From Stanieria cyanosphaera PCC 7437 (GTDB taxonomy: Bacteria; Cyanobacteriota; Cyanobacteriia; Cyanobacteriales; Xenococcaceae), in the NCBI RefSeq assembly GCF_000317575.1, contig NC_019748.1:3120501-3184500 (forward strand): a DNA stretch of 64,000 nt, written 5' to 3'. The notes below the pieces were generated by a model that made no database searches, was not told the origin of the DNA, and was given only the letters and a program-made list of their open reading frames with translations. This document shows, piece after piece, positions 37,900 through 59,228 of this stretch. How positions within the stretch are numbered: the stretch's first letter is position 1; the number at the start of each line of letters is the position of its first letter. The translations under genes and the position numbers were made by a program.

Positions 37900-37928
37900 A
37901 ATTTTTATTGTTTTCAAAGCTTAATAGA

Positions 37929-37971
37929 GCAATCAGCTAGTCTTCAACGCTCAAAGAAGTCCGCTGGCGCA
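37929..37971 (+). repeat. Dispersed repeat, second copy
   Basis: GCAATCAGCTAGTCTTCAAC... through GCTGGCGCA matches 32708-32749 over ~22 bp at the left and 9-10 bp at the right. It lies in the gap between the PatA-like regulator and the cheY homologue, where the sequence is unusually G+C-rich up to ~38010. Confidence 0.5.
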
Positions 37972-38113
37972 TACGCGAGAGGTTCACTCCCTTCGGTCGC
38001 GGTCGCAATGTTAACCCCATTATTTATTTTGAAGCAGTTTTGTTAATTAAAAAACATTTTGGGGAATTCTATTAATAAATATATTTTATGTTCTGGTTGC
38101 GGAGTAAATCACG

Positions 38114-38479
38114 ATGAACAAAGTCTTGGTAGTCGATGACAGTTTAACTGACAGAAAAGTTGTGAGTGCTTATCTTGAACAAGCTGGTTTAACGGTACTA
38201 GATGCGAGTAGTGCCGAAGAGGCAATGGACAAACTAACTCAATATCAACCTAGTTTAATTGTCCTCGATGTCGTGATGGGAGGAAAAAGTGGTTTTGAGA
38301 TGTGTCGCACTCTTAAAGCTGAACAAAGTACTAAACCAATTCCAATTATTCTTTGCTCTTCTAAATCAACTGAAGCTGACAAAATGTGGGGTAATGTTGT
38401 CGGTGCAGACGCTTATTTAACTAAACCTGTTAATCGTGATGAACTTATTAACAAAGTTAAGCAACTGATTAACCGTTAG
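38114..38479 (+). CDS. CheY-like response regulator (PixH type)
   Basis: A 121-residue single receiver domain with acidic pocket VVDDS (Asp8, Asp9), phospho-acceptor Asp52 in LIVLDVVMGG, Ser in ILCSSKS and Lys in YLTKPV. It should shuttle the phosphate signal from the hybrid CheA to the pilus machinery. It is the second gene of the Che-like operon, 15 bp before the cheW homologue. A ribosome-binding GGAG lies ~12 bp ahead of its ATG. Confidence 0.93.
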   Translation: MNKVLVVDDSLTDRKVVSAYLEQAGLTVLDASSAEEAMDKLTQYQPSLIVLDVVMGGKSGFEMCRTLKAEQSTKPIPIILCSSKSTEADKMWGNVVGADAYLTKPVNRDELINKVKQLINR

Positions 38480-38493
38480 AACGATAAATAATT

Positions 38494-39039
38494 ATGTTAA
38501 GTCTGTCTCAATCTAATTCTTTAGCTTTGAATTTAGGTATCAAGACAAATAATTCATCTAATCGCCAACGACTCCGCAAATTTTTACAATTTCAACTAGC
38601 TGAATCAAAAGTAAATCGAGCTTTACTAGAAGCAGAGTTAGTTACTGAAATTATTACCATTTCTTCTACCGAAATTTTACCTGTTCCCCAGATGCTTTAT
38701 TGTGTTTTGGGGATTTATAGTTGGCGCAGTGAAATGCTGTGGATTGTAGATTTGGAAAATCTTTTAGGCTATCCTTCTGTTTTATTTTCCGACGCAGCAG
38801 TCACAGAAGCAAAAAGTTTAATGACAATGATTGTACAGTTTCAAGGACAAGCATTAGGTTTAGTTGTTTCTGCTGTCGATAATATTGTTCAGTTAGATTT
38901 GGAAGAATTTAAATCACCTTCTCCAGAGTTGTTTTCTAATGATGTGCTGCCATTTTTAAGCAGTTATTTTAATAGCAGCCACAATGAAATTATGATGCTC
39001 CTCGATACGGCGGAAATATTTCATTTTTTCAATTTATGA
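38494..39039 (+). CDS. CheW-like adaptor (PixI type)
   Basis: A 181-residue protein with a CheW-like beta-barrel domain (~residues 55-175: EILPVPQMLYCVLGIYSWR, MLWIVDLENLLGYPS, GLVVSAVDNIVQLDLEEF). It couples the chemoreceptor to CheA. The N-terminal ~45 residues are an unconserved polar extension. It sits 15 bp after cheY and 99 bp before the receptor gene. Confidence 0.85.
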   Translation: MLSLSQSNSLALNLGIKTNNSSNRQRLRKFLQFQLAESKVNRALLEAELVTEIITISSTEILPVPQMLYCVLGIYSWRSEMLWIVDLENLLGYPSVLFSDAAVTEAKSLMTMIVQFQGQALGLVVSAVDNIVQLDLEEFKSPSPELFSNDVLPFLSSYFNSSHNEIMMLLDTAEIFHFFNL

Positions 39040-39138
39040 ATTATGAAAATTCTTTTCTGGAGATTGTTCTGAGGCTCAGAATTTTCTCTTGAGCGCAAAT
39101 TTAAGACAAGAGATCTTTACTAAGACAAAGCAAGAATT

Positions 39139-42100
39139 ATGAATACAGCAAATACTACCGCTAATAGTAATCCAGCAAATTCCACCTCTCAACAAGATAC
39201 TCTTGAAAAAATTAAGAATAATGTTTTAAAGCAAACTAGAGAACGACTTCGCCAAGTTATTCAAACTATTCGTCAATCTTCAAATAGTCGCGAAAGTCTT
39301 TTAAATCAGACAACAACTGCGATTTGTGAAGAATTAGCAGCTAGTCGGGTACTGATTTATCAATTTGAGGATGAGAACAACGGGAAAGTTATTATGGAGT
39401 CAGGGAAGATTGATTGGACTCCAATGCAAAATGAAACTTTACCCTGTCTTTGTTTTGGAGTCGGCAGTGCAGCAGATTATCAACAAAAAGAAATTGTAGC
39501 TATTTCTCATGTCAAACAAACTAGACTAACTCCTTATCAGCAACAGTTATTAGAAAAGTTTCAAGTTCAAGCTTCTCTTGCTTTGCCTATTTGTCTGAAT
39601 CATCAGGTTTGGGGATTGGTAGTAATTCATCAATGCGATCGCCCTAGAAAATGGCAAGAAGAAGAAATTAATTTGCTTTGCCAATGGACAAATGAATTAA
39701 CTATTGCTCTACAACCACTAGAATTACGCTGGGAACTGCAACAACAACTAGAACGGGAAAAAACTACTGCTAAAGTAATTGAAAAGATTCAGCAGTCTCA
39801 AGATTTACCAGATATTTTTCGTACTGCTACCCAAGAAGTCAAAAAACTCTTAAGATGCGATCGCGTCATCGTCTATCAATTTAATCCCGACTGGACTGGA
39901 TTGGTTGTTGCCGAATCAGTAGGTAGTGGTTGGGTTTCTTTGTTAGTCGAGCAAAATAATGATGACGTTCTTAGTGGCGATCGCATTCAGTTAGATCGTT
40001 GTCTGCTCAGAAATTGGTCGAAAGAAACCAAAGCGGATATTGTTGAACCTGATAGTTTTCTCAAGCAAACTCAGGGAGGAAGATATACTCGCGGACAAAA
40101 GTTTACAGCAGTAGATAACATCTATACCAAAGACTTTCCTGACTGTTATATTCAATCTCTTGAAAAATATCAAGCTAAAGCCTATTTAATCGTACCGATT
40201 TTTCAAAAAAACACACTTTGGGGGTTACTGGGAGCATATCAAAATGATGGTATGCGAGTCTGGCAACAATCTGAAATTAATTTCATGTTACAAATAGCTA
40301 CTCCTTTAGCAGTGGCAATCCAAAGAGCAGAATTTATCAGCGATCTTGAAGCAAAAAATCAACAAGATCAAGCCGTTAATCAAATTGTGGATCGTATCCG
40401 TCACTCTCTTAAGCTCACGGATATTTTCCGTAATGCCACTCAAGAAGTAAAGAAAATCCTCAAGAGCGATCGCGTGGTAGTATATCGTTTTAATCCTGAC
40501 TGGAGTGGGGAAGTAGTAGCTGAATCATTTAATTCTCAATGGGTTTCTGTAATGGAAATTCAAGAAACTGATGAAACTCTCTACAGTACCGAAATGAGTG
40601 CAGATGACCGATGTACGTTGAAATATCTCGAATCTGGTTCTGCTCTTGATAGCGATACTTATTTTATGGAAACCCAAGGAGGCAAGTATACGAAAGGAAA
40701 GAAATTCCAAGTAGTAAATGATGTCTATCAAGCGGGATTTTCTGCTTGTTATTTACAATCTCTCGAAAAATATCAGGCAAAAGCTTATATTATTGTACCT
40801 TTGTTTCAAGAAGGACAACTATGGGGTTTACTCGCTACTTATCAAAATGACGCTCCTCGTACTTGGAAAAAATCGGAAGTAGATTTAATGCTCAAAATTG
40901 CTCCTCAATTGAGTATTGCCTTACAACAAGCACAAAAATCAGAACAACTAGCCAAAACTGTGGTTAGACAAAAAACGATCGCACGAATGGTTGATCGGAT
41001 GCAACAAGCAACGACAGTAGACGAAGTTGTTAATATTGCTACCAAAGAAACTCGCAAACTTTTAGCAGTTGAACTAACCACCATCTATCGTTTTAACTCC
41101 GACTGGAGTGGAGAAACTATTGTTGAAATTGCTGCGAATGCTGATGTCAAATCGATCAAAGCAGCAATTAATAACGACCCCTATTTACAAAAAAATCAGG
41201 GTGGCAGATATCGACGCAATGAGTATCGAGTAGTTCATAATACCGCTCAAGCTGGTTTGGAAGAATGTCGGCTCGAAATTTTAGAACAATTAGGGATTAA
41301 AGCTTATATCTCCATGCCGATTTTTGTCGATCAGCAACTGTGGGGAATTATTAGTGTTTATCAATCCCTAACTAGGGTGTGGGACGAAGAAGAAATCGAA
41401 ACCCTCAAACAAATTGGAACTCAAACAGGATTAGCGATTCAACAAACCGAATACGTTAATGAATTACAAACCCAAACTCAGCAAGAAAAAACCATCTCTG
41501 CCATTGTAGATCGCATTCGTGGCTCTCTTAAACTCAAAGAAATTTTCCGTAACGCCACTCAAGAAGTGAGAAAATTACTCAAATGCGATCGCGTGATTGT
41601 TTATCGTTTTCTTCCTGATTGGAGTGGGGAAGTTTTAGCCGAATCGGTTGGTTCGCAATGGGTTTCGGTGATGGAAATCCAAGAAACTGACGAAACTCTC
41701 TACAGTGCCGAAATGAGTAATGATGACCGCTGTACTCTAAAGTATTTAGAAGCAGGTTCGGCTCTTGATAACGATACCTATTTTATCGATACCAAAGGCG
41801 GAGATTATGCCAAAGGTAAAAAATTCCAAGTAGTTAATGATGTTTCTACTGCGGGTTTTTCTTCTTGTTATCTGCAATCTTTAGAAAAGTATCAAGCTAA
41901 AGCTTACATCATCGTTCCCATCTTTCAAGACAATAAACTATGGGGTTTATTTGCTGTCTATCAAAATTCTGGTGTGCGTAACTGGAAGGCTTCAGAAGTT
42001 ACTTTAATGCTCAAAATTGCCCCACAACTAAGTATTGCGATTCAACAAGCAGAAAAATCAGAAAAATTAGAAAAAACGGCTAAAAGAGAGCGAGGTTTAA

Positions 42101-43644
42101 CTAAACTACTTGAAAAAATCCAAGAAGTTCAAACTCAAGTCAAAATTTACCAAATTACTACCCAAGAAGCTCGTCAGTTACTCAATTTAGACCGCGTTAC
42201 CATCTATCGTTTTAATGCTGATGGCAGTGGAAAATTTGTCGGCGAATCTCTGCTTGGGAATGGGTTAATTTGTCTTGACAATCCTTCTTTTCTCAAAGAT
42301 ATCTATACCTATTTACAAGAAAGCGAAGGAATCATTTATCAAAACAATCAATCTTTGGCAGTGGCTGATATTTACAAAGCTGGTTATGACTCCTACTACC
42401 TAGAGTTACTTCAGCAACTAGAAGCTAAAGCCTACATGATTGCTCCGATTTTTGTCGAACAAAAACTTTGGGGTTTATTGGGAGCTTATCAAAACACTAA
42501 TACTCGTCAATGGGAAGAAGATGAAATTAACGCTCTCAAACAAGTAGGTTTACAAATTGGGGTTGCGCTGCAAAAAATTGCTTACCTAGAACAAGTCAAG
42601 ATTCAATCAGACAACCTTGCCCAAACTTTAGCACGGGAAAAAGCAGCCAAAGAGCGATTACAACAACAAGCAGTAGAAATGCTCCGTACCGTTCGACCAG
42701 CTTTTAGTGGTGACTTAACTGTTAGAGCGATCGTTACAGAAGATGAAATCGGTACAATTGCTGGAGCTTACAACACTACTCTTGATTCTCTCAAAGATAT
42801 TGTGATCCAAGTCCAAAAAGCTGTAGAACAAGTAGTTTATACAACTGGGGATAGTAGCGTTGCTGTTGAAGGTTTATCCAAACAAGCCCAACAACAATTA
42901 CAAGAGCTACAACAAGCCTTAGAACGAATTCAAGCCATGATCGAAGCTTCTACTATTACCACTCAAAATGCCCAAAAAGTAGAAGTTGCCATTGAGCAAG
43001 CCAATCAAACAGTTCAATCGGGCGATCGCGCTATGAATAATACGGTTGAAAGTATTCTTGGTATTCGTCAAACTGTTGCTGATGCTGGTAAACGAGTTAA
43101 ACGTCTCAGTGAGTCTTCACAAAAAATCTCGAAAGTAGTTAGTTTAATTAGTTCTTTTGCTACTCAAACCAATCTTTTAGCTCTTAATGCTGCTTTAGAA
43201 GCGACTCGTGCAGGAGAATATGGTAAGGGATTTGCCGTAGTAGCCGATGAAGTCCGCAATCTTTCCTTGCAATCATCGGAAGCGACTACCGAAATTGAAA
43301 AGCTAGTCAGAGAAATTCAGGAAGAAACTCAAGAAGTTGCTGCTGCTATGGATGCAGGAGTTCAACAGGTTGCTGAAGGAACGAGTCTCGTCAATGAAAC
43401 TCGCAATAGTTTAAATGCTATTGTGGTAGCCACTGCCGAAATTCGGGAATTAGTTCAGGGAATTACCTCAGCAGCTAATGCTCAAACCCAACAAGCAGAA
43501 TCTGTTACCAAAGTAATGGGACAAGTAGCAGAAATTGCTAGCGGTACTTCTAATGATTCTCGCAAAATTTCTAGTTCTTTCCATCAACTACAACAACTAG
43601 CTCAAAATCTCCAAGCTAGAGTTGCTCAATTCAAAGTTAATTAA
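39139..43644 (+). CDS. Six-GAF chemoreceptor with cyanobacteriochrome domains (PixJ/PtxD type)
   Basis: A 1501-residue methyl-accepting chemotaxis protein. I count six GAF domains (~45-195, 220-400, 415-600, 615-775, 790-975, 990-1145), then a HAMP-like segment ([19 protein letters not shown], ~1180-1225) and an MCP signalling domain (~1240-1500, hairpin tip [19 protein letters not shown]). The bilin-binding Cys position is filled in GAF2 (C336, CY), GAF3 (C537, CY), GAF4 (C710, CR) and GAF5 (C910, CY), absent in GAF1, and YY in GAF6. GAF2, 3 and 5 have a second Cys (C288, C492, C865) in a long insert. No membrane segment is seen. This is the expected light receptor for phototaxis, as in PtxD of Nostoc punctiforme. 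Which GAFs bind chromophore is not proven. Confidence 0.92.
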
Positions 43645-43736
43645 TTTTTCTATTCTGAATTTTGAAATGGACAACCTACTATCTGTTTCAAAGTTCAGAT
43701 TTTTTTCTTGTTTATCAGCAATTTACTAAAAAAAAG

Positions 43737-46700
43737 ATGATTACTGACCCTGATATTCGCGATCGAGCTTATCAGTATTTCCTTGAAGAAGCTCCTGCAT
43801 TACTAGAAACTATTGAAGAAGAAATTTTTGCTCTCAATAGTGACTCCATAGACGCTAAAACCAGACCTTTAAGAGTAAATACCTTAATGCGAGCAACTCA
43901 TACTCTCAAAGGAGGTGCAGCCAATGTAGGGTTAGAAACCATCAAAACTGTAGCTCATTCAATGGAGGATGTCTTTAAAGCTCTTTATAATCCTGATTTA
44001 GTTATTGATGCTGAAATCAAAAAACTTTTATACGAAAGCTATGAGTGCCTTCGGATTCCTTTGACCGCAGAATTAAGTAAAACTTCAATTGATCGCAGTG
44101 AAATTTTAGACCGTACTGCTACTGTTTTTGCTCAATTACAAGAGAAATTTGGTGATTATCTAGTCGATCAAGATGCCTTTCCTACTTCAGCAGAATTAGG
44201 TTTAGATGTAGTTGAATCTTTCTTTCAAGCAGTTATTCCTGAACGAATTCAAGAACTGTCTATCGCTTTAGCTGCTGCTAATCCTCAACACATTGCTGAA
44301 ACATTACAACTGCAAGCCGATATTTTTCTAGGTTTAGCGGAATCTTTAGAATTACCTGGTTTTGGTGAAATAGCTAAAACAATTTTAACTGCCCTACAAC
44401 AGTACCCTCAACGTGCAGAAGAAATCGCTGAACTAGCGATCGCGAATCTACGCCAAGCTCAACAACAAGTTTTAAATGGCGATCGCGCTTTGGGGGGACA
44501 ACCTTCCGAAGCTCTTTTACAACTACTCAATCATTCTGTTTCACCTAAATTAGAAGAACTTTGGTTGCCACGATCTGAGCAAGATGAACCATTTATTGAA
44601 ATTAATGCTGAAGAGGCTGAAGATTTTTCCAATGATTTTGAAACTGACACAGAATTAACGATTATTCAACTCAACATTGCTACTGAGTCTTCTGAAGAAA
44701 ATCATCCTAGTGAATTATTGAGTGAAATTTGGGGTGAAGAAATAGTTTCAGAGCCTGAATCTATCGATGATACCATTATCCAAACTGATGAAATTATTAC
44801 TTCTCAAGCTCAACAATCAGAATCAGAACCATCTTTAGATAAAGAAATTAATCATAACCAAGCAGAAGAAACCATTGCTCAAGTTACTTTAGAATCTGAT
44901 CAAATTCAACCAGAAACTATTGAGGTAGATTCCCTACCTACCACCATAGCTAAAATTGGTAATATCAGTAAACAATCTTCTACTAATAAAACTCCAAATA
45001 ATCAAACCGTCAGAGTTCATTTAGAATCTTTAGAAAAGTTAAACGATTTAATTGGAGAATTATTAATTAATCAAAATCAAAATGTCTCCAAAGACGAAGA
45101 AATTTATAATGCTATTCAAAAATTAGTTGAACAAATTAATCATAACGAACAAATAATTAATCAATTAATCGATCTGGCTGATGAAATTTCTTTATCAGAA
45201 CAACAACAAAAAATCTTACAAGAATTACCAGAAAAATTAACTCAAATTACTAATCAATCTAATTTTCTGATTCAATCTTCTCAAAAAATTGAGCGGAATA
45301 AACAATTAAATCAATTACTACAACAGGCAACAGATAGTAATTCTCACTTAGCTCGTATCGCCGATCATCTCAAAAACTTTAACAAACAATCGAGAAATAA
45401 CGTTCAAAAACAACAACGTATGTTGTTAAACATGAGAGATGAATTAATCGAAACCAGAATGTCTCCTCTGGGTAGAATTTTCAATCGTTTTCCTCGTTTA
45501 ATTGAACAGTTATTAACTTCTTACGATAAACAAGTAGACTTAAAAATTAGTGGTAGTCATGTTCTAGTTGATAAAGCAGTCGAAGAAAAACTCTACGATC
45601 CTTTATTACATCTCATTCGTAATGCTTTTGATCATGGCATTGAATCTCCCGCAGCACGTTCTCAGAGTGGTAAACCATCCAAAGGAACTATCGAACTTAG
45701 AGCTTATTATCAAGGTAATCAAACTATCATTGAAGTAAAAGATGATGGACAAGGATTAAACCTGGAAAAAATCAAACAACGTGGAATTGAAAGAAATTTA
45801 ATCACACCTCAACAAGCAAATAGTTCTAATCCTAGTCAACTCTTAGAACTGCTATTTGAACCAGGATTTTCCACTGCGGATCGAGTTAGTGATCTTTCTG
45901 GTAGAGGTGTTGGATTAGATGTAGTTCGTTCTCAAATTGAAGCTATTAACGGTGCGATCGCGATTGAATCTACTCCCAATCAGGGGACAATTTTTGCTTT
46001 ACAAATACCATTGACTTTAACTATTGCTAAGTTAATGTTAACCCAAGCCAAGGGAATGACTTATGCCCTCTTAATTGATTCGATTGAAAGAATTGTGATT
46101 CCTACTTCTAATCAAGTCAAAATCTTTGAAGGACAAAAAGTATTACATTGGGAACACAATGGTAACAATGAAATTATTCCTGTGCGTAGTTTAGCTAGTT
46201 TGATGGAATACTGCCGAACTACTCAACAACAAACTGATTTATCCCAAGAAAATGAATACAAACCAATTTTACTACTTCATCGTCAAGGAGGCTTGCTCGG
46301 TTTAGAAGTAGATCGAGTTTTAGGAGAACAAGAATTAGTCATTCGTCCTTTGGGTAGTGCGATCGCACCCCCTCGATATGTTTATGGTTGTAGTATTTTA
46401 AAAGACAGTAGTTTAACTTTAGTTATTGATGGCGCAGCTTTACACAGAGAATTTGAATATCGTAGTTTGTCCCTCAATCAACGCTCTTTTTTAGGCACTC
46501 AAACTCAACGAGCTTTGCCTTCTGAATCTGAGCAATCCCAACCACTTTTAGAAAGTTCCTCAGCTTCGGAGATAATTTCACAAACTTTACTAGTGGTAGA
46601 TGATTCTTCTAGTTTGAGGCAAACTATTGCTATGTCTCTGCAAAAAATTAGTAATCAAGTAATTCAAGCTGAAAATGGACTGAATGCGCTAGAAAAGTTA

Positions 46701-46973
46701 CATCAATCTGAAGAGATTGGTTTAGTAGTCTGCGATCTAGAAATGCCCTTTATGAATGGCTTTCAGTTTTTAAAAGCGATTCGACAACATCATAATTTCA
46801 GTAATATTCCTGTGATTATTCTTACTTCCAGAGACAGCGCAAAGCATCGGAAATTAGCTTTAGAATTGGGTGCTGCTGCTTATTTAATCAAACCTTATCG
46901 AGAAGAAGAATTACTTGATACTATTGTCAAAATTTTGAATGCTAGTAATTTGAAAGCACAAGCTTTCATTTAA
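43737..46973 (+). CDS. Hybrid CheA histidine kinase with receiver (PixL type)
   Basis: A ~1078-residue kinase. I start at ATG 43737 (MITDPDIRDRAYQYFLEEAP) because the HPt domain follows at once; the longer frame from 43662 adds 25 residues unlike the family. The order is HPt with phospho-His55 in THTLKGGAANVG, a long acidic and glutamine-rich linker, the dimerisation and ATPase domains (LIRNAFDHGIESP N-box, DDGQGL, FSTADRVSDLSGRGVGLD), a CheW-like domain and a C-terminal receiver (LLVVDDSSSLR, phospho-Asp in LVVCDLEMPFMNG, KPY). It phosphorylates the CheY and PatA-like proteins of the operon. The gap to the receptor gene is 92 bp. Confidence 0.93.
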   Translation: MITDPDIRDRAYQYFLEEAPALLETIEEEIFALNSDSIDAKTRPLRVNTLMRATHTLKGGAANVGLETIKTVAHSMEDVFKALYNPDLVIDAEIKKLLYESYECLRIPLTAELSKTSIDRSEILDRTATVFAQLQEKFGDYLVDQDAFPTSAELGLDVVESFFQAVIPERIQELSIALAAANPQHIAETLQLQADIFLGLAESLELPGFGEIAKTILTALQQYPQRAEEIAELAIANLRQAQQQVLNGDRALGGQPSEALLQLLNHSVSPKLEELWLPRSEQDEPFIEINAEEAEDFSNDFETDTELTIIQLNIATESSEENHPSELLSEIWGEEIVSEPESIDDTIIQTDEIITSQAQQSESEPSLDKEINHNQAEETIAQVTLESDQIQPETIEVDSLPTTIAKIGNISKQSSTNKTPNNQTVRVHLESLEKLNDLIGELLINQNQNVSKDEEIYNAIQKLVEQINHNEQIINQLIDLADEISLSEQQQKILQELPEKLTQITNQSNFLIQSSQKIERNKQLNQLLQQATDSNSHLARIADHLKNFNKQSRNNVQKQQRMLLNMRDELIETRMSPLGRIFNRFPRLIEQLLTSYDKQVDLKISGSHVLVDKAVEEKLYDPLLHLIRNAFDHGIESPAARSQSGKPSKGTIELRAYYQGNQTIIEVKDDGQGLNLEKIKQRGIERNLITPQQANSSNPSQLLELLFEPGFSTADRVSDLSGRGVGLDVVRSQIEAINGAIAIESTPNQGTIFALQIPLTLTIAKLMLTQAKGMTYALLIDSIERIVIPTSNQVKIFEGQKVLHWEHNGNNEIIPVRSLASLMEYCRTTQQQTDLSQENEYKPILLLHRQGGLLGLEVDRVLGEQELVIRPLGSAIAPPRYVYGCSILKDSSLTLVIDGAALHREFEYRSLSLNQRSFLGTQTQRALPSESEQSQPLLESSSASEIISQTLLVVDDSSSLRQTIAMSLQKISNQVIQAENGLNALEKLHQSEEIGLVVCDLEMPFMNGFQFLKAIRQHHNFSNIPVIILTSRDSAKHRKLALELGAAAYLIKPYREEELLDTIVKILNASNLKAQAFI

Positions 46974-47182
46974 CTCTTGATCGTGATTAGCTCTTGGTGA
47001 GATCATAAATTGTTGCTTAATATCTTACCTAAGTTAGATTTAAAGATCACGGAAGTTTACTTTTTGTAAATGCAGTACAATTTCAGTAATTTCACTGATT
47101 TAGTTTGTTAACCAACTCAAGAATTAAAACTGAATCGCATGAAAAGACAATTGCAAGTTAACAAGAGTAAACTTATAAATTT

Positions 47183-48637
47183 ATGGCTATAGAGCATATT
47201 TTTACTGAAATCACCGAAAATAAAGCTGAAAAAAAGAATTTAATTAGTGAGATTATCAAAAAAATTCGCACTACTCCTACAGAAGAAGATATTTTAAATA
47301 TTGCAGTAGAAGCACTTCATCAAGCTTTAGAATGCGACCGCGTAATAGTTTATAATTTACAGCCAGAATCAAGAGGAAAAATTGTTGCTGAATTAGTTAA
47401 TTCAGACTTTCCGAAAACTATAGATAGTGTCATTGTTGATCCTTGTTTCGAGCATAGATATATTAACAAGTATCAACAAGGTCGAGTTATTGCAGTAGCT
47501 AATATTTATGAAGCAGGCATGACTCCTTGCTATATTGAAAACTTAGAAAAAATCGCAGTTAAAGCCAATTTAGTTACTCCCATACTCATTCCTGACGAAT
47601 CATTGTATGGACTGTTGGTAGTTCATCAATGTTCTCAACCTCGTCAGTGGACACCATCGGAAATAGAGCTTGCTACTCAGATTGCTTCAGAAATAGGTTG
47701 GGCTTTAGAAAATGTTCGTCGTAAGCAACAATATCAGAAATTAACACAACAATGGCAGAGAAATTACCAATGGCAACAATCTTTACAAGCAGTTATGAAA
47801 AAGATGAATTCTGGTTGTAATTGTGCTGAAGTTTTACAAATAGCTGTTGAGCAAGTTAAAGAAATTTTACAATGTGACCGCGTAATAATCTACGGTCTTC
47901 AAAAACCTAATCAAGGAACTATTGTAGCTGAATCTACTTTTGCTGCTTTAGCTCCGATCTTAGGACAAACTATTCTCGATCCTTGTTTTGAGTATAGATA
48001 TCTTGATCAATATCGCCAAGGTCGAGTTATTGCAGTAGCTAATATTTATGAAGCAGGTATGACTCCTTGCTATATGGAAAACTTAGAAAAAATAGCCGTC
48101 AAAGCCAATTTAGTTGTGCCAATTAATTGTGAAGATGAAGCAATTTATGGTTTATTAGTAGCTCATCAATGTTTTAATTTTCGAGAATGGCAAACCGAAG
48201 AAATTGAATGGCTCAAGCAAGTAGGAATACAAACTGGATTTGCCCTATCAAAAGCTAAATTAAAAGAACAAGTAGAATCGTTCAATTCAGTTTTTACAAA
48301 CTTACAAAACACTAAACAGGAAATAGCGGTCGCAAAAACTCAAATTCGAGAAATTCGGCTAAAAGTTCAAGATACAAGCGATATTTTAGGAGAAATTAAT
48401 AATTTATACAAAATGTTAGACAGAGAAGTAACCTTGATTAATCAAGCTAATTTGATTCAAGATGACAAGAAAAGTCAATTAATTAAAATTATTTTCAAAA
48501 AAATCAGGCAAAACTCTCAGAAAATTGGAGAAAATATTCATTTATTTGCTGGACAAACTTATCAAACTGAAGAATTACTTCAAAATCTCAAGACTAATCT
48601 TGATCACAATATCCTCAATCATCACAAAACAAAATAA
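47183..48637 (+). CDS. Tandem DXCF cyanobacteriochrome GAF protein, no output domain
   Basis: A 484-residue protein with two closely similar GAF domains (~20-185 and ~200-365) and a helical tail (~370-484). Each GAF carries both cyanobacteriochrome cysteines: the DXCF Cys (C88 and C268, in DPCFEHRY and DPCFEYRY) and the canonical bilin Cys (C116 and C296, in GMTPCYIENLE and GMTPCYMENLE), 28 residues apart in both. Such dual-Cys GAFs typically give blue- or violet-absorbing photocycles. The tail has no kinase, cyclase or MCP domain that I recognise, though TSDILGEINNLY and IRQNSQKIGENI recall MCP coiled-coil sequence. It lies 209 bp after cheA on the same strand, so it may belong to the phototaxis regulon. 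Confidence 0.88.
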   Translation: MAIEHIFTEITENKAEKKNLISEIIKKIRTTPTEEDILNIAVEALHQALECDRVIVYNLQPESRGKIVAELVNSDFPKTIDSVIVDPCFEHRYINKYQQGRVIAVANIYEAGMTPCYIENLEKIAVKANLVTPILIPDESLYGLLVVHQCSQPRQWTPSEIELATQIASEIGWALENVRRKQQYQKLTQQWQRNYQWQQSLQAVMKKMNSGCNCAEVLQIAVEQVKEILQCDRVIIYGLQKPNQGTIVAESTFAALAPILGQTILDPCFEYRYLDQYRQGRVIAVANIYEAGMTPCYMENLEKIAVKANLVVPINCEDEAIYGLLVAHQCFNFREWQTEEIEWLKQVGIQTGFALSKAKLKEQVESFNSVFTNLQNTKQEIAVAKTQIREIRLKVQDTSDILGEINNLYKMLDREVTLINQANLIQDDKKSQLIKIIFKKIRQNSQKIGENIHLFAGQTYQTEELLQNLKTNLDHNILNHHKTK

Positions 48638-50471: not shown

Positions 50472-50709
50472 TGTGTTAATTGATCGCTTCTTGATATCCG
50501 ACTTTTATAACAACAATTAACTACAAACGACAAGATAGCAGAATAGTTTGCTGTGAAGTTTTTTAAAATGTATTAAAATTTTTTAGAATTGCAAGCAATC
50601 GCTATTCTAAGGAAATTAAGTAAAAAACAAAGATAGTTTTTCTTAGTTTCAAATTAAATCTAATATTCTGTAGACAGGTTAAAATCTACTGAATATTCAT
50701 GAGATTTGA

Positions 50710-53205
50710 TTACATTGTTTTCTGCCGCTCAAACCAGTCTTGCACTTGGAGAGTATTATCACAAGCAATTAGCTGATCTAAATTTTCGACATGACCAAAA
50801 TACTGAGCAACTTCTGCTAATTGAGCTAAATGATCTTGGGTAGTTCGCTGTGCTGGACTCAACAAAAGTACGACTACATGAACGGGTTGGGCTGCTCGCT
50901 CGTGACGTACTCCTTGAGGATGAATTCCCAAAAACATTTTGGTTTCTTTTAATTCTTGCACCCGTGCGTGAGATATAATTACTCCTGGTAGAATCTCACT
51001 GGCATAGCCGACATCGTCGTAAACCAGAGCTTTTAACACCCTATTGTGACGGGGATCTTGTTGGTCAATTGCAGTGCTTAGTAAAGCATTAACAGTTTGT
51101 TCATAGGATAAGGTATTTAGATTTAACAGCACTCGTTCTTCAGTCAAAATATCTGGTAAGTATTGTGGTTGAAAAGCACCAAAACTTCGGGCTTCTTTCT
51201 CAGAAGGGTATAGCACCAGGAAACTAGATTGGAGATCTGCTAACATTTGCGGTAAATGCTCTAACGCTCGTTCATGAGCTACAGTTCCCTCTCTAGCACT
51301 GACTAAAATGATTAAGTTGGTATCATTAGAAGTTTTTTGGAGATAAGAACGAAGTTCTTGCCAGGTGGCAACCTGCATAAAGCTAGTTGTAACTTCAATG
51401 GCTACCTCATTAAAATGCTGCTGAAGTCGATCAGCTTGATCATTAACCACTAACACTTGCAGCGACGCTCCTAATTGTGATGCTAAATGTTTGAGCGATC
51501 GCACTGCTTCGTAAAAACCTGGATTATGATCAATCAATGTAGGTAAGACAACAATTAGACACTGAAAGGTGTTCACAGGATGATTGATCTTACAAACCCA
51601 CACCTGTTGGGTCGATTTTTCTAACATCTGGTCAATCACTGTGCCAAAAATGCGCTGCTGAGGAGAGCTTGCTCCGTTCCAGCCGATCACAATATCGCTG
51701 ACTCGTCGCTCTGTTGCAGCCTCCACAATTCCTGATGCTGGATTTCGGGCAACACGAGTTACTGGATTAACAGGCAGATCTATTTCTGCTGCATGAACCA
51801 CTGCATGAGCTAACAATCGCTCCGCAGCAGCCACATTAACTTCTGTATTTTCGCTATCCGTTTCTTCTGCTACAACTGTAAGAGGGAATACCGTTTCCTC
51901 AGATTTATTTTCCCGTAGCATAGCTGCAATATTCACGAGGATTTCACTGGTGGATGGGTTTGCTAAGGGAACAAGAATTCTTTGCGGAGCTTTACCTGGT
52001 TCGTAAGGTTGTTCTTCTTGCTGTCGTGCCACTTCCCGACCAAATCGATTGACTATCGACGGACCTAAAATACAAGTAGCAAAGATCATCAGCACCACAC
52101 CATTTAAGACATCATCTCCAATAATGCCTAGCTCATAACCTACTAATGTTGCTGCTAGGGTTGCAGCAGCTTCACAAGTAGACAAACCAAAAATAACCCA
52201 CCCTTCAGCGTTGGAATAATTGTAGATACGGCGAGTAATATTTGCAGCAATCCATTTAGTTATCACATTAGTCGATAACATAGAAATCATCACAATCCAA
52301 GCAGTGAAGCCACTTGCTAAGACTGAGACATCTACCAATAAACCAATAAAGATTAAGAAAAAAGGAATAATAAAAGTCTCGCCAAAAAACTGAATACGAT
52401 TCATCAAGCGACTACGCTCAGGAATTAAACCATTCAGTGTTAGTCCAACTAAAAACGCGCCAAGAATAGCCTCAGTACCAACAGCACGAGCTAAATAAGA
52501 TAAAATAAAGACGACTGCGAGAACAAAAATAAACTCACTTTTACCACCATCTGATACATTGCGAAAAAACCAGCGAGCCAGTAGAGGAAGTAGATAAATT
52601 ACGGCTGCTATATAAATTATCATCGACAGTGCCAGAGTGATCCAGAATGTTGTAGTCAGTTCTCCTTCATATCCTCGTGCTACCACAACCAGTACCAATA
52701 AAGCAACGGTATCGGTGAGGATAGTACCACCAACTGTCGTTACGACAGCATCATTTTTCATAATGCCTAGTCGACTAATAATCGGATAAGGCACAAGAGT
52801 ATGAGAAGCAAACATACTGGCAATCAAAATTGAGGCTGCCCAATCGAATCCAAGCAGATATCGAAAGATGATAGTACCTAATACTTGAGGAATAGTAAAT
52901 GTGATCAGACCAAAAACGAGACTGCGATCGCGATTTTTACGGAACTGAGACATATTAATCTCTAACCCCGATAAAAACATGATGTAAAGCAGTCCTACAT
53001 TACCAAGCAATTCAATCGCTTGTCCTCGTTCTAAAATATTTAGGACACTAGAACCTAGAACAACCCCTGCCACAATTGGACCAATTAGCCCAGGAAGTCG
53101 CAACCGTTCAAAGAGTAGCGGTGTTGCCAAAATGACAACCATGCAAATTCCGAAAATGAGAATTGGGTCTTTAAAGGGAAGGGATAGCCCTAGAATTGAT
53201 TCCAT
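50710..53205 (-). CDS. CPA2-family cation/proton antiporter with C-terminal stress domains
   Basis: An 831-residue protein. The first ~390 residues hold about 12 membrane segments of the CPA2 (KefB/NapA-like) fold, with PGLIGPIVAGVVLG in an early helix, ASMFASHTLVPYPIISRLG and AILGAFLVGLTLNGLIPERS. After a QQEEQPYEPGKAPQRILVPL junction come two universal-stress-protein-like regions (~410-545 and ~550-700). The family exchanges Na or K for protons, and soluble domains often gate it. The small USP gene lies 10 bp upstream on the same strand, one operon. Confidence 0.9.
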   Translation of the reverse strand: MESILGLSLPFKDPILIFGICMVVILATPLLFERLRLPGLIGPIVAGVVLGSSVLNILERGQAIELLGNVGLLYIMFLSGLEINMSQFRKNRDRSLVFGLITFTIPQVLGTIIFRYLLGFDWAASILIASMFASHTLVPYPIISRLGIMKNDAVVTTVGGTILTDTVALLVLVVVARGYEGELTTTFWITLALSMIIYIAAVIYLLPLLARWFFRNVSDGGKSEFIFVLAVVFILSYLARAVGTEAILGAFLVGLTLNGLIPERSRLMNRIQFFGETFIIPFFLIFIGLLVDVSVLASGFTAWIVMISMLSTNVITKWIAANITRRIYNYSNAEGWVIFGLSTCEAAATLAATLVGYELGIIGDDVLNGVVLMIFATCILGPSIVNRFGREVARQQEEQPYEPGKAPQRILVPLANPSTSEILVNIAAMLRENKSEETVFPLTVVAEETDSENTEVNVAAAERLLAHAVVHAAEIDLPVNPVTRVARNPASGIVEAATERRVSDIVIGWNGASSPQQRIFGTVIDQMLEKSTQQVWVCKINHPVNTFQCLIVVLPTLIDHNPGFYEAVRSLKHLASQLGASLQVLVVNDQADRLQQHFNEVAIEVTTSFMQVATWQELRSYLQKTSNDTNLIILVSAREGTVAHERALEHLPQMLADLQSSFLVLYPSEKEARSFGAFQPQYLPDILTEERVLLNLNTLSYEQTVNALLSTAIDQQDPRHNRVLKALVYDDVGYASEILPGVIISHARVQELKETKMFLGIHPQGVRHERAAQPVHVVVLLLSPAQRTTQDHLAQLAEVAQYFGHVENLDQLIACDNTLQVQDWFERQKTM

Positions 53206-53215
53206 TTATTACTCC

Positions 53216-53806
53216 TTATGGTTTATATGCCACTGGAACTTGCAAATTCCACATTGATTGCTGTGCAATTTTGTTTGGCTCTCGTATACTTTTTGATGTT
53301 TTAAAATGAGACAAGTTTTGGGTTTTACTTTCAGGTTGTACAACAATGACAGAACAAGGGGCATGAAGAACCACCTGATTGGTTATGTTGCCAAATAGTT
53401 TTTCCTTCAGACTTGGTTTTCCACCATGCCCAACAACGATGAGATCTGCTTCCCATTGCTGCACTAAGGTGCAAATTTGAACTCTTGCCTCTCCCGTTTC
53501 ACATTTAACTTCTGCATTAATACCGTATGCTTGTGCTTGTAAGGCATAGTCACATAACCACAGCCAAGATTCTTTTACCTCATTCAAATGTTCATCTTGA
53601 AATTTTCGTAACTTTGCCGAACTCACCAACCCACAGCCTGCATCAATCAATAGACTTAATTGTTCTAGAGTTTTCAATTTGATCCAACTGGTGAGAATAA
53701 GATTACTGTCATTTTGCTTGGCTAGGGTGAGTGCCTGTTCAAATACTTGAACTGCTGAATCATTGCGCTCAAGTGCCACTAAAATCCTTTTAAAAGAGAT
53801 TTTCAT
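53216..53806 (-). CDS. Universal stress protein
   Basis: A 196-residue UspA-family protein. ILVALERNDSAVQVFEQALT opens the fold and VVGHGGKPSLKEKLFGNITN gives the nucleotide-binding loop (G-2x-G-9x-G-[ST]-like, with N at the last position), followed by VVLHAPCSVIVV. The ~35-residue tail beyond the fold is unusual. It precedes the antiporter by 10 bp and is the first gene of that pair; regulation of the antiporter is a plausible but unproven role. Confidence 0.9.
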   Translation of the reverse strand: MKISFKRILVALERNDSAVQVFEQALTLAKQNDSNLILTSWIKLKTLEQLSLLIDAGCGLVSSAKLRKFQDEHLNEVKESWLWLCDYALQAQAYGINAEVKCETGEARVQICTLVQQWEADLIVVGHGGKPSLKEKLFGNITNQVVLHAPCSVIVVQPESKTQNLSHFKTSKSIREPNKIAQQSMWNLQVPVAYKP

Positions 53807-54424
53807 GAAACTTTTTCCTTAGTCTAGTCACGTAAACCAAGCAAGCTCTTTTAATATCAACCAAGAACACCAAATAGATCGACAAATTTAAAATGTTGAA
53901 ATTTAGTCTTCTTTCAATGCCGACGAAGTTAGCTGACGGGCTAGGACTGAAAGATGTCCTTCTGAATTGATAAACAAATGATATTTCACTTTTTATCTAC
54001 TTCAAGATATGCCGCTCTAATATTTGCTCTTGCCAAAAACTAGCAAGCTCAAGATTTAGATTAGGCTGACTTGCTTAAAGATACAGATAATTTTATCACA
54101 TGATTATTTTTAATTTTTAACAGCTAAAAAAAGCTTGATGGACAAATTTAATGATCAGTTTATTTATAGCAGTTTATTTGTTTTAATTTGTTAAATTTAG
54201 ATAAATTTGGGCTAAGAAATTAGAATTTTAGAGAGATGATTATGGTGAAATAATTATTATTTAGACTCTACAGCAACCAAATTAACGATTATGTAGCTGA
54301 GCAAACATTGAAGCGGGCTTTAGAACACGTAATTGTGTTTCGTTGCTTTAGGATTAGTGTGTTCACTTTTCCAATCAAGTCTACAATCAGTTGATTTTTT
54401 TGAATCCATTGAGGAGAGTATTTC
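53807..54424. other. 618-bp divergent intergenic region with G+C-rich relic
   Basis: It lies between the divergent USP and DUF2092 genes. At 53905-53970 a G+C-richer stretch contains GACGAAGTTAGCTGACGGGC and the hairpin AGGAC-tgaaagat-GTCCT, possibly the end of an old insertion sequence. AACACGTAATTGTGTT (54324-54339) is an imperfect palindrome ahead of the DUF2092 gene. The rest is AT-rich. Confidence 0.4.
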
Positions 54425-55246
54425 GTGAGTAAATTTAAAACTTGCTGTAGGATAGCTGCACTTTTTACAGGATTAATAGTTAATTCACAGATGACTACGT
54501 TTGCAGAAACACCAACGCCTCAAAAACAAAATACTAGCATTATTATTGCTCAGACAGATGAATCAATTCTCAATCCTGCGATTGAAGAGAAAGCAGCCGA
54601 AATTCTGCGTCAGATGTCTGATTTTATCGAATCTCAAGAGCAATTCTCTTTTTCTGCTGAGAGTGAAAGAGATGTGCTGACTTCTACAGGTGTTTTTGTT
54701 CAGGTTACTCATTCGGGTGAGATGATTGTTAATCGTCCCAATCAATTTCGGTCAAATGCAACTGGAGATTTGGTACAAAGAGAGTTTTGGTATGATGGCA
54801 AACAAATAACTGTGGTAGACAAGCAACGTAACATCTATGCAACCGAAAATGCTTCTGCCAATATGGATCAAGCTTTAGATACCCTGATTCAAAAATTAAA
54901 CGTCAGTATGCCTCTAGCTGAACTACTCTACAGTGACATATATGAAGGTTTGCTCGAAAATGTACAAGCTGGTTTCTACTTTGGCATGGGTAAGGTTGAG
55001 GATGTTCCTTGTCACCATTTAGTCTTTGTTCAAGAAGGTATAGACTGGCAAGTATGGATTGAAGACAGCGAAACTCCTTTGTTGCGGAAAGTATCTATTG
55101 CTTATAAAAATCGAGAAGGCGTACCAAGATATACAGCGACTCTCTCAGATTGGAATTTAAAACCAGAAATAGCGACCGAGCAGTTTACTTTCTCGCCTCC
55201 TGCTAATGCTAAAAAGGTGGAGTTTGTCCAGGCAACACCTTATTAA
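54425..55246 (+). CDS. Secreted DUF2092 protein
   Basis: A 273-residue protein beginning with GTG at 54425, supported by GAGGAG ~8 bases upstream and by a signal peptide (CCRIAALFTGLIVNSQMTTFA). The mature protein has the DUF2092 pattern: EILRQMSDFIESQEQFSFSA at the start, FWYDGKQITVVDKQRNIYAT, and a late DVPCHHLVFVQEGIDWQVWI and LSDWNLKPEI. The fold resembles LolA/outer-membrane lipoprotein carriers, which suggests a periplasmic lipid- or ligand-binding role (inference). The function is unknown. Confidence 0.82.
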   Translation: MSKFKTCCRIAALFTGLIVNSQMTTFAETPTPQKQNTSIIIAQTDESILNPAIEEKAAEILRQMSDFIESQEQFSFSAESERDVLTSTGVFVQVTHSGEMIVNRPNQFRSNATGDLVQREFWYDGKQITVVDKQRNIYATENASANMDQALDTLIQKLNVSMPLAELLYSDIYEGLLENVQAGFYFGMGKVEDVPCHHLVFVQEGIDWQVWIEDSETPLLRKVSIAYKNREGVPRYTATLSDWNLKPEIATEQFTFSPPANAKKVEFVQATPY

Positions 55247-55367
55247 AGTTAATATTCTTTGATGGATGCTAAGTAGAAAAAAGTGGCAACTGGTAACTCT
55301 TATAAACGCTCATGAATTGGATTTTGGTAAAAGTTAAACAAGCTACAGAATTTGGTGTTAGAAGATA

Positions 55368-55793
55368 ATGAACGAGAAAAAAAGAAATCAACAATCAATA
55401 GTAACCACAATCGCGATCGCAATAGCAATAGTAACCATCAATGCTGATTCGGCAATGACACAGCAAGTATATCCTCAAAGCGGACAAAGTCCTCAACAGC
55501 AACAAAGAGACGAAAATCAGTGTAGCAGTTGGGCAACTCAACAAACAGGATATCAACCTCCTCTTAGTAGTAAATCAGGTGGTGGCAGAGTTTTACGAGA
55601 TGCTGCTCGTGGTGCCGGTATAGGTGCAGTCGCTGGACTTCTAGGTGGTGATATTGGCACTGGTGCAGCTATTGGTGGAGCCGTTGGAGGCATTAGTGGT
55701 GGTATACGCGATCATGATGAGAAAGAACAACGAAAAGATTTTGATCGTGCTTTTGCTGCCTGCATGGAAGGTAGAGGATACAGTGTCAAATAA
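55368..55793 (+). CDS. Glycine-zipper protein
   Basis: A 141-residue protein. A signal peptide (VTTIAIAIAIVTINADSAM) is followed by a glutamine-rich stretch and a glycine zipper (GAGIGAVAGLLGGDIGTGAA, ~residues 86-110) and a charged end (RDHDEKEQRKDFDRAFAACMEGRGY). The first Cys (in DENQCSSWA) and the last (in AACMEGRGYS) recur in this family of small envelope proteins. The zipper inserts into or spans membranes in relatives; the role here is unknown. It follows the DUF2092 gene by 121 bp. Confidence 0.75.
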   Translation: MNEKKRNQQSIVTTIAIAIAIVTINADSAMTQQVYPQSGQSPQQQQRDENQCSSWATQQTGYQPPLSSKSGGGRVLRDAARGAGIGAVAGLLGGDIGTGAAIGGAVGGISGGIRDHDEKEQRKDFDRAFAACMEGRGYSVK

Positions 55794-55832
55794 TAAATAA
55801 TAGTAATTAAAAAATGTAATTTAATGAATGTC

Positions 55833-56417
55833 TCATTTTGTATTTGACGGTTTAACGCGAATGATGACCTCATTTTCACCTTGACGACTCATCTGAATAA
55901 AATTTTTCGGCGTGTTCCACTCAAGTAGTATTGCAATGTTCTTTTCAGAGGTTTCAGGTTGATTACGCAAAGTTGTTTCTGTTTCTGGTACAGCATAGTT
56001 ATCTCTGTTAACTAATCTAAAACCTCGAATCTCAGAATCTTTTTTAGATAAACCACCTTGCGCTCTACTAGGAAGACCAAATTCTTCAATCATGGCAAGT
56101 CCTAAATCCTCATTCTTACCAATAGACTTGAAGATTATTTCTGATAATTGGGAATCACCGATGTTAAAGTTGAAAAAGACATCAAATGAGTAGCCTTCTT
56201 TTGTCCACTGACTTTTAAGTAAGGTTTGTTGATGATCATCTTTAAATAAATCTTGCTCATCAGGATTGACAGGTATTGCTTCACCTTTCGACGCTGTCAT
56301 CACTTCATCTACACTCATACCCCAGCGAGTGTACTGCCACTCTGCTTGAGCGGGTAAATTAATCATCATGACGACAATTATTGTGATGACTAAAGTTAAA
56401 AAAAATTTTTTGCTCAT
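55833..56417 (-). CDS. Secreted protein of unknown function
   Basis: A 194-residue protein with a signal peptide (FFLTLVITIIVVMMINLPAQA). The mature domain begins EWQYTRWGMSVDEVMTAS, a motif seen in small periplasmic proteins that start with W-x-x-x-x-W-G-M-[ST]. The middle is beta-rich (FDVFFNFNIGDSQLSEIIFK). No function is known to me. It lies 45 bp after the hydrolase-binding-protein fusion on the same strand and converges on the glycine-zipper gene. Confidence 0.7.
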   Translation of the reverse strand: MSKKFFLTLVITIIVVMMINLPAQAEWQYTRWGMSVDEVMTASKGEAIPVNPDEQDLFKDDHQQTLLKSQWTKEGYSFDVFFNFNIGDSQLSEIIFKSIGKNEDLGLAMIEEFGLPSRAQGGLSKKDSEIRGFRLVNRDNYAVPETETTLRNQPETSEKNIAILLEWNTPKNFIQMSRQGENEVIIRVKPSNTK

Positions 56418-56462
56418 AGTTGATAGTTGATACTTGATTGCTTGATATTACCAACTAAAAGT

Positions 56463-59075
56463 CTAGTTTTTTCGTTTATTCAGACAATAATCTAAATCAG
56501 CAACTGCTTGAGGAAAGTATTGTCCTAACCACTTCTTTTGAAGTTGTTTAGCTTGTTCATGGATAAAAATGTTAACTGTATTGTGCCATTGAAGATCTTC
56601 TTGAGGCAAAATCAATCCATAAAAATTACAAGTTAAGGGTTCTTTTGGTACTAACTGATAATTTTCTAGCACTAAATTTTGTTGTTTAAGTTCTCCCCTC
56701 AACAAAATATCATCACTGAAAAAAGCATCAATTGTTCCATTGGTAGCTGCTTTGACTCCTTCGCTTCTGCCTGTTTCTTCCTGAAAATAGATTATTTCTG
56801 CTTGGGGATAAGTTTCTTGGATGAATTGGGCAGTAGTAGTATTTTGGAGAACTCCGATCGCAACTTCTTCTAAATCTTTTTTTAAATTAACTTGAGCTAC
56901 ATTGTTATTGCTCACTAACAAACGACTACCACTGAAAAAAAAGGGATTAGAAAAGCTAATATCTTTTAGATCTGTCGCGATTGTATTAGGACCACATTCC
57001 AAATGAACTGCTTCTTGCTGAACGAGTTCAAAACGATTTTCCAGATTAGAAGGTAATTTGATTACCTCAATTTCAGAAATAAGATTGAGTTTTTTAGTCA
57101 AATATTTGCCCAAAGAATCGGCAAGATCTGCACAGTAACCTGTCCAAACGTCTTGTTCACCATCTATATACCCAAAAGGAGCAGCATCACTTCTCATTGC
57201 TACTTTGAGAGTTTTAGTTCTTTTAATTTCAGCTAAGATATTTTTTTCTTGACGAGGGGAAATAGCAACTAATGGTTCGGGAATAGGCGGAGTAGGAGGT
57301 TTATTACCGTAGGCTTGTTCTAGTTCCGTTGGAGTCAAAGATTTAATCAAATGCAAAGGTAATTCTTGATTACTAATAGTTTGGCTATAAGCATTAGTGA
57401 GATAAGATTGGTAATTGCTGCGATCGCGCAAATAAACTTCAAAAAAAGCTAAACTTAATGCTTTAAGATAGCTTCTACCCAAATCAGGACGAGGTCCTTT
57501 CAATAGAGTTGGCAAGTTAGCAATTCCCTTTTCATCACTAATAGAACTATGAGTGCCACCAACCATTACACCTAAATATTTATTTTTATTTGTCAACCAA
57601 AGAAAAGGATGAGCTTGTTCTTCAATAAAAGGAGTAATAATGTCTTCACTTCCTGCCAAAATCATGGTTGGAATGTCTATTTTTCCTATCCCTTCTGGTC
57701 CTAAAATTGAACTGGTCATAGGATTAACTGCTACTGCTGCTTTGATGCGAGGCTCTTTGAGATTGTATTCTGCTGGAGGCAAATAACTAGCACGACATTG
57801 TAGCAACATTGAAGTGTTGAGAGTGGGCTGATTTCGTTGACATATTTGATTAATTCTGGCTTGGTTAAGAGTTGCACCAGAGGTTAGTAAAGCAGTAGTA
57901 CCACCAAACGAGTGACCAAGAATACCCACTTGTTGCCAATTAATTAGTCCCTGAAACTCCGAATTCTCTTCTATGGCGTTGAGGAGATGGGTGACATCTT
58001 GGGGACGACTATAAAATTCTGAGGGACTAACATCGACACTAAGTTCTCCCCGTAAAAAAGCTTCTTTGTATTTACTACTACTACCAATGTGTTCGGGAAT
58101 TAGGACAATGTAACCATGAGAAGCTAAATGTTCTGCCAAATAATCAAAATGAGAGGGGTCTGAACCAAAACCATGAGAGATTACGATTAGGGGAGTTGGT
58201 TGCGAAATATCTTGAGGTAGATAAATCTCTGCATCGAGACTATAAGCTCTAGACAAACCTAATTGAGTTTGACGTAGCCTCTTAATCTCAAAGGTCATTG
58301 TTTTTTTCTGAACTGAATAAATTCCTTGCTGACGTAAATCTGGTGACTGCTCAAAATTGATGTGTGACTGAGAAAAAACTTCTTGATTTGCTATTGATGC
58401 GATCGCGTCTACTGTAGTTTGATTATAAGATAAAAAGTTGGCTGTCTCTTTGATCAGCGAGAAAATCAATTTGGTGTTGACTTGAATTTCTTGAGTGGGG
58501 AAGTGACGCATGACATCGATGGCATTTAAACTTCCTGAGTCTGCTGCTGCTAAAATAAGAGCGGAGCGAATCGCGTAAAGACCGTTTCTTTCTGGGTGAG
58601 TATATATTACTTCTCCTATATCCTTGAGAAACTTCTCTCCCATCGGCATAGTCGTCATTCGATAAACAGTAGTAGGACTAACCTCAAACTGTTTTTGTAA
58701 TGCCTGACGCAATTGAGTCAATGTGTGCTGGTCTAGGCGACTGGTATAAAGTTTAAGATCGTTAGCAATTTTTCCTTCTTTGGCAAACAATTCTAAAGAA
58801 TCAACTGAGACATGAAATTCCCCTAAAATAGGAAGTGAAAAACTTACTTGTTCTGCTCCTAAAACTGGTTTGGGTCTTAGTGCCATAGATATTCCCAAAC
58901 TAGCTAGAAAACCTGTAAAAATTACTTTTAATAGTTTTTTTTTGGTTATTTGAGTATTTAACTTAACCAGATGCGTTAGGTTGCGATTACGATCTGAAAT
59001 GGAGATTGCTTTTTGTAATTGAGCTAAAGTTTTTTCTTGTGGCGGATTGAGTTTAATCCTTAATGGTGCTGGCAT
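56463..59075 (-). CDS. Fusion of DUF1400 alpha/beta hydrolase and amino-acid-binding (SBP3) domain
   Basis: An 870-residue protein. After a membrane-anchor or signal segment (~residues 50-70, KVIFTGFLASLGISMAL) comes DUF1400 (~75-210, FSLPILGEFHVSVDSLELFA), then an alpha/beta hydrolase (~270-590) with oxyanion region SHGFGSDPSHFDYLAEHLAS, nucleophile Ser389 in LGHSFGG and a late His in VGGTHSSIS. The end (~615-865) is a family 3 solute-binding domain (LKVAMRSDAAPFGYIDG, WTGYCADLADSLG, GVLQNTTTAQFI). DUF1400 hydrolases are cyanobacterial lipase-like proteins; the binding-protein tail is the odd part. It may sense or bind a product of the hydrolase (inference). The frame is uninterrupted, so the fusion is real in this sequence. 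Confidence 0.88.
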   Translation of the reverse strand: MPAPLRIKLNPPQEKTLAQLQKAISISDRNRNLTHLVKLNTQITKKKLLKVIFTGFLASLGISMALRPKPVLGAEQVSFSLPILGEFHVSVDSLELFAKEGKIANDLKLYTSRLDQHTLTQLRQALQKQFEVSPTTVYRMTTMPMGEKFLKDIGEVIYTHPERNGLYAIRSALILAAADSGSLNAIDVMRHFPTQEIQVNTKLIFSLIKETANFLSYNQTTVDAIASIANQEVFSQSHINFEQSPDLRQQGIYSVQKKTMTFEIKRLRQTQLGLSRAYSLDAEIYLPQDISQPTPLIVISHGFGSDPSHFDYLAEHLASHGYIVLIPEHIGSSSKYKEAFLRGELSVDVSPSEFYSRPQDVTHLLNAIEENSEFQGLINWQQVGILGHSFGGTTALLTSGATLNQARINQICQRNQPTLNTSMLLQCRASYLPPAEYNLKEPRIKAAVAVNPMTSSILGPEGIGKIDIPTMILAGSEDIITPFIEEQAHPFLWLTNKNKYLGVMVGGTHSSISDEKGIANLPTLLKGPRPDLGRSYLKALSLAFFEVYLRDRSNYQSYLTNAYSQTISNQELPLHLIKSLTPTELEQAYGNKPPTPPIPEPLVAISPRQEKNILAEIKRTKTLKVAMRSDAAPFGYIDGEQDVWTGYCADLADSLGKYLTKKLNLISEIEVIKLPSNLENRFELVQQEAVHLECGPNTIATDLKDISFSNPFFFSGSRLLVSNNNVAQVNLKKDLEEVAIGVLQNTTTAQFIQETYPQAEIIYFQEETGRSEGVKAATNGTIDAFFSDDILLRGELKQQNLVLENYQLVPKEPLTCNFYGLILPQEDLQWHNTVNIFIHEQAKQLQKKWLGQYFPQAVADLDYCLNKRKN

Positions 59076-59112
59076 TTTTTCTTTATTGTCTCACCTTTTT
59101 ATCTTATATTTA

Positions 59113-59228
59113 ATTTCACAGAAAATAGGCTTTAGCCCTCGGAAGCACGCCTGTTTTAAAGGGGTGAAGAAGAGTCCGAGGCTTCAGCCCTCCTCCTGTT
59201 TGGTTTCATAGGTGATATAATCTTCCCT
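59113..59228 (+). mobile_element. Left end of an IS200/IS605-type element
   Basis: GGCTTTAGCCCTCGGA and TCCGAGGCTTCAGCCC face each other across ~40 bp (59130-59190), an imperfect hairpin of the subterminal type in IS200/IS605 left ends. It lies directly ahead of the tnpB fragment. Lower-case G+C content rises locally, as expected for a foreign end. Confidence 0.65.

Follow-up and report, generated by a model that had tools for sequence, protein, structure and literature searches.

A family of stand-alone tandem DXCF-GAF proteins with a conserved, predicted helical tail, one member of which is encoded behind a phototaxis operon in Stanieria cyanosphaera

Results

The window analysed here is a stretch of 64,000 nucleotides from Stanieria cyanosphaera PCC 7437 (contig NC_019748.1), and positions refer to this stretch unless stated otherwise. 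On its forward strand, a Pix/Ptx-type operon (36709-46973), identified by Pfam matches, encodes a PATAN-like response regulator, CheY, CheW, an MCP with six GAF domains (PixJ) and a hybrid CheA (PixL). The next gene on the same strand (47183-48637), an intact open reading frame that starts with ATG and has orthologs in other genomes, encodes a protein of 484 aa. It begins 209 bp behind pixL, i.e., at the distance given in a preliminary description of this DNA, and no terminator-like site was found between the two genes by a simple scan. On the 3' side, the end of a convergent gene lies at 48651, too close for a frame-shifted output domain to fit in between. In the adjacent six-GAF MCP (39139-43644), the GAF stretches examined contain no DXCF motif and few canonical Cys residues at the usual place.

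The 484-aa protein contains two GAF domains (Pfam, E 2.3e-34) and no other family above the cut-off. Both are DXCF cyanobacteriochrome GAFs encoded on the forward strand: GAF1 spans residues of about 35-177 (47285-47713; Pfam and PDB matches) and GAF2 residues of about 213-357 (47819-48253; Pfam and alignment to TePixJ). The closest PDB matches of GAF1 include TePixJ (3vv4/4fof) and 6oap, and comparison of the GAF fold with those of cyanobacteriochromes and phytochromes gave VIA Z values of 22-24 (rmsd about 2 over 150-170 residues). As the preliminary description had noted, each GAF has a DXCF Cys and a canonical bilin Cys, 28 residues apart. In GAF1, the second Cys, that of the DPCF motif, is Cys88 (codon 47444-47446) and the canonical Cys is Cys116 (47528-47530); in GAF2, the equivalent residues are Cys268 (47984-47986) and Cys296 (48068-48070). 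The GAF2 pair is in register with the DPCF and canonical Cys residues in an alignment to the solved TePixJ sequences, so a spacing of 28 residues is what the class ordinarily shows and does not set this protein apart. The DXCF GAF of TePixJ (PDB 3vv4, 4glq, 2m7u) thus shares its fold and both Cys positions with the window protein, but there the canonical Cys is followed by His and the receptor has an MCP output, whereas here both canonical Cys residues are followed by Tyr and the two GAFs are followed only by a tail in which no known domain is found.

The two GAF-coding segments of this gene are 82% identical at the DNA level over 204 bp around the bilin site (47432-47633 and 47972-48173) and share an exact run of 41 bases, compared with up to 24 in the orthologs measured, a pattern which suggests recent local gene conversion.

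The tail, residues 350-484 (48230-48634, forward strand), was described earlier as helical and devoid of an output domain, and both parts of this description hold: no Pfam domain was found in these residues (best E 0.01, far below the cut-offs) and the AlphaFold2 model, of a monomer, places helices at residues 338-421 and 428-483. In this model, the last helix of GAF2 continues unbroken into the tail, to residue 421. The mean pLDDT of the whole-protein model is 82.9 with a pTM of only 0.54; when folded alone, the tail gives the same hairpin (mean pLDDT 87.8, pTM 0.63). Neither HisKA nor HATPase_c was found by Pfam in the protein or in the tails of its relatives, and MCPsignal did not rise above the cut-off in the protein or in 14 family tails (best E 0.042). 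Comparison of the tail fold with solved structures returned generic helical hairpins of unrelated functions, with a best Z of 12.7 (rmsd 2.6 over 128 residues), a value too low for a helical match to be informative, and a Foldseek search with the tail against solved structures yielded nothing convincing (best E 0.07). The predicted hairpin shape therefore says little about function, as it matches many unrelated proteins.

Alignments of the family (A1, 22 rows; A2; A3, 28 tails) identify conserved tail positions, which in the numbering of the window protein are E404, L408, L412, E415, I436 and K440, while the turn between the two predicted helices varies in length among members. In six close pairs the dN/dS ratio of the tail was 0.05-0.45 (a seventh pair was saturated), which indicates that the tail is under purifying selection; the GAF part gave 0.09-0.41 in close pairs.

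A scan of the collection with the single protein returned no relatives, probably because single-sequence patterns are too specific, while the whole-genome search succeeded. The tail alone as query gave matches in 20 of 60 related genomes, and the whole protein as query gave frames of about 430-540 aa in those same 20 genomes. Among 293 genomes of the order, 28 gave a match to a tail profile, and these belong to two families, labelled f1 and f31; a profile built from both families detected two of 390 genomes sampled evenly across the class, both from f1. In total, orthologs were found in 21 of 27 f1 genomes (one copy is frame-broken and one is cut by a contig end) and in eight f31 genomes. The tail matches sit in frames of 432-537 aa behind two GAFs, except for the frame-broken G021 copy, and in the genomes sampled the tail was found neither fused to anything else nor in any other architecture. 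That G021 ortholog (L104:7072-8152) is split over two frames of 281 and 92 aa, by a frameshift mutation or an assembly error. In A1, A3 and the GAF tree, the window protein groups with the other members as two GAFs followed by a homologous tail and no further domain. Judged by their sequences, these about 30 stand-alone GAF-GAF-tail proteins are an orthologous family in two cyanobacterial families, new here, and the DXCF sensor with two GAFs and a conserved tail is thus real and not confined to this genome. No earlier description was found in the open-licence literature by title or abstract; a mention elsewhere is possible.

Of 29 members, 28 retain the Cys pair of GAF1 and 23 that of GAF2. 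Six f31 members do not have the canonical Cys of GAF2, and an f1 paralog (L092) has lost both Cys residues of GAF1, from which it follows that the family does not depend on having both chromophores functional. Losses in GAF2 outnumber those in GAF1, which is therefore the better conserved of the two sensors.

A maximum-likelihood tree of 84 GAF domains places all GAF1 domains of the family in one clade (support 98/78) and all GAF2 domains in another (100/99), and the two clades together form one group (99/87). The GAF thus appears to have been duplicated and joined to the tail before the two families diverged, a reading of the tree that holds unless the gene was later passed between them. The sister group is made up of GAFs from large multi-DXCF proteins that occur in the same cyanobacterial family. 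The GAFs of the adjacent PixJ, of which only the three long enough for inclusion were used, are placed in a different clade, among other cyanobacteriochromes of this genome; an origin of the gene as a recent fragment or copy of the neighbouring PixJ was rejected on these grounds.

The preliminary description had suggested that the protein modulates the neighbouring Che-like operon, and a search for the same tail beside pix or ptx operons bears directly on this proposal. Among about 30 orthologs, a pixL ortholog was found beside the gene in this genome only, such that a PixJ/PtxD-type che linkage is not conserved for the family; outside this genome, conservation is next to unrelated genes only, a pattern that the preliminary description had named as a refutation of its proposal. 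The ortholog adjoins an alpha/beta hydrolase gene at 12 loci (one member checked by Pfam) and rpsT, tatD, rpoB and rpoC at three loci (named by sequence inspection), and other neighbours include the set of ilvD, a MATE-like transporter gene and ilvC (by inspection), as well as a glycosyltransferase gene and GUN4. The GUN4-like neighbour (L082:8612-9250, in G003) was seen once only; the GUN4 family is tied to tetrapyrrole synthesis. In the stretches read around f31 orthologs, no CheA- or CheW-like gene directly adjoins. Signalling genes are found in the wider vicinity at three f1 loci: in G025, a hybrid CheA distinct from PixL (31% identity) is encoded two genes from the ortholog on the opposite strand, in G026, genes for a response regulator and CheW are located about 6-7 kb downstream, and in G011, there are two multi-DXCF-GAF genes, one of them directly adjacent.

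In G001, a genome of the same genus, the pix operon is complete (78-93% protein identity), and the kinase gene downstream of it is present at 93% identity. Here, the stretch that corresponds to 46978-48633 is missing (window positions 46977 and 48634 correspond to 14016 and 14167 of L135), and about 150 bp separate pixL from the next gene, with no trace of the GAF gene; no ortholog was found elsewhere in G001. The gene either came behind pixL by a single-gene move or was cleanly lost from the sister genome. A second stretch, of 8.8 kb (50579-59406), with a Na/H exchanger gene and others, is likewise missing from G001 at the syntenic place (window positions 50578 and 59407 correspond to 16111 and 16276 of L135), which marks the region as a variable spot.

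Across the 27 f1 genomes, 12 contain both the gene and a pixL ortholog (at 56% identity or more), nine only the gene, two only pixL and four neither, i.e., presence of the gene does not track that of pixL (Fisher p = 0.38). Draft assemblies make some of these absences uncertain, but the assemblies of G011, G012, G017, G019, G022 and G023, which contain the gene and have no pixL ortholog, are 95-100% complete.

Discussion

Cyanobacteriochromes usually signal via an attached output domain. In our reading, to which we assign a probability of about 0.6, the window protein is a soluble photoreceptor of the DXCF class whose signalling would proceed by protein contact via its predicted helical hairpin. 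From the Cys pairs and their register with TePixJ, it probably senses light in the blue range through two domains that bind pigment. For this protein we infer bilin binding, dimerisation and solubility, as well as the contact signalling itself.

The formation of a second thioether linkage, to the DXCF Cys, is established for this class of photoreceptors. DXCF GAFs typically bind phycocyanobilin (PCB) and isomerise it to phycoviolobilin (PVB) (PMC11284453). Each GAF of the window protein would thus be expected to bind phycocyanobilin at the canonical Cys, usually in a form isomerised to phycoviolobilin, and the linkage to the DPCF Cys would be expected to be made and broken by light, which would result in photoconversion of the blue/green type. 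By analogy, the most economical mechanism would be that of a phytochrome-type dimer with a helical spine that ends in a partner-contacting bundle. Specifically, the last helix of GAF2 is predicted to run into the tail, which would fold back as a hairpin, and dimerisation would bring two hairpins together in a four-helix bundle. Light might then shift the register or the splay of this bundle and thereby alter binding to a partner protein, probably one that is not tied to the phototaxis operon next to the gene. A more far-reaching proposal, which we regard as tentative and slightly less probable than its opposite, is that the tail constitutes a signalling module of an undescribed kind, confined to positions behind tandem DXCF GAFs, and that via this module a soluble cyanobacteriochrome would regulate a partner by light-dependent contact without a kinase, MCP or cyclase.

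The strand, the 209-bp distance and the lack of a terminator-like site in the simple scan are what would be expected if the protein were instead dedicated to modulating the adjacent Pix/Ptx operon, which it would do by contacting the six-GAF receptor or the hybrid CheA. However, the orthologs elsewhere adjoin unrelated genes, the operon of G001 is intact without the gene, and nine genomes carry the gene without pixL and two pixL without the gene, which makes this role unlikely. The gene is thus probably neither a dedicated part of the pix operon nor a functional unit with it, and the proposed modulation of the operon does not find support. More generally, nearness to a phototaxis operon in a single genome says little about what a gene does. 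The sequences likewise lend no support to mimicry of the receptor's coiled coil by the tail, because MCPsignal remained below the cut-off and a profile comparison of the tail with the degenerate MCP-like tails carried by the closest multi-GAF proteins was not significant (P 0.028, probability 1.8%). That same comparison weakens a different possibility, i.e., that the protein forms mixed dimers or competes with the multi-DXCF-GAF proteins that carry such tails. This scenario would fit with the sister relationship of the GAFs in the tree, with the G011 locus, where one multi-DXCF-GAF gene is directly beside the ortholog and another within 9 kb, and with a weak similarity of the tails at an equivalent position behind the last GAF (best E 5e-4 in the small set searched), yet this genome and several other carriers of the gene have no multi-DXCF-GAF protein at the threshold used, and we consider it fairly unlikely.

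The preliminary description had also considered that the tail could be a truncated MCP domain in a decayed gene. MCP-like receptors with related GAFs do exist, but the orthologs in two families share their end point and a conserved tail with dN/dS well below 1, and the GAFs are not derived from the neighbouring PixJ; a truncated or decaying MCP photoreceptor is already contradicted by the conservation data and is highly improbable, and an origin by decay was therefore rejected. Finally, the variation of the Cys pairs in some members may point to a mainly bilin-binding or redox-responsive protein in which light sensing is secondary. This interpretation appears quite unlikely, since almost every member retains the DXCF and the canonical Cys of GAF1, which is what photoconversion predicts.

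The contact-signalling photoreceptor that we favor differs from the known systems to which it is most readily compared. The phototaxis receptors SyPixJ1 and PtxD (PMC5812497) also contain cyanobacteriochrome GAFs, and the neighbouring operon in this genome encodes such a receptor, but they are MCP fusions encoded in che operons, whereas the window protein has no MCP domain. A precedent, by analogy only, for a non-enzymatic photoreceptor that acts by contact is PixD-PixE, a BLUF protein and a PATAN-CheY regulator (PMC5812497), where both chromophore and fold differ from those of the window protein. A conserved family in which only the light-sensing domains and a helical tail are retained provides a compact photoreceptor for direct tests of contact signalling, and possibly a light-switchable binding module.

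The multi-DXCF-GAF proteins of the sister clade (L091, L175-L187) have three to six GAFs, mostly DXCF, and many have tails of 210-295 aa that weakly match MCPsignal (best E 1e-8; below the cut-off in the member shown), which the tail of the window protein does not. At several of the loci of these relatives, where no full CheA was found in the stretch examined, two multi-GAF genes lie on either side of a divergent gene that encodes a PstS-like binding protein (PBP_like_2) of about 346 aa.
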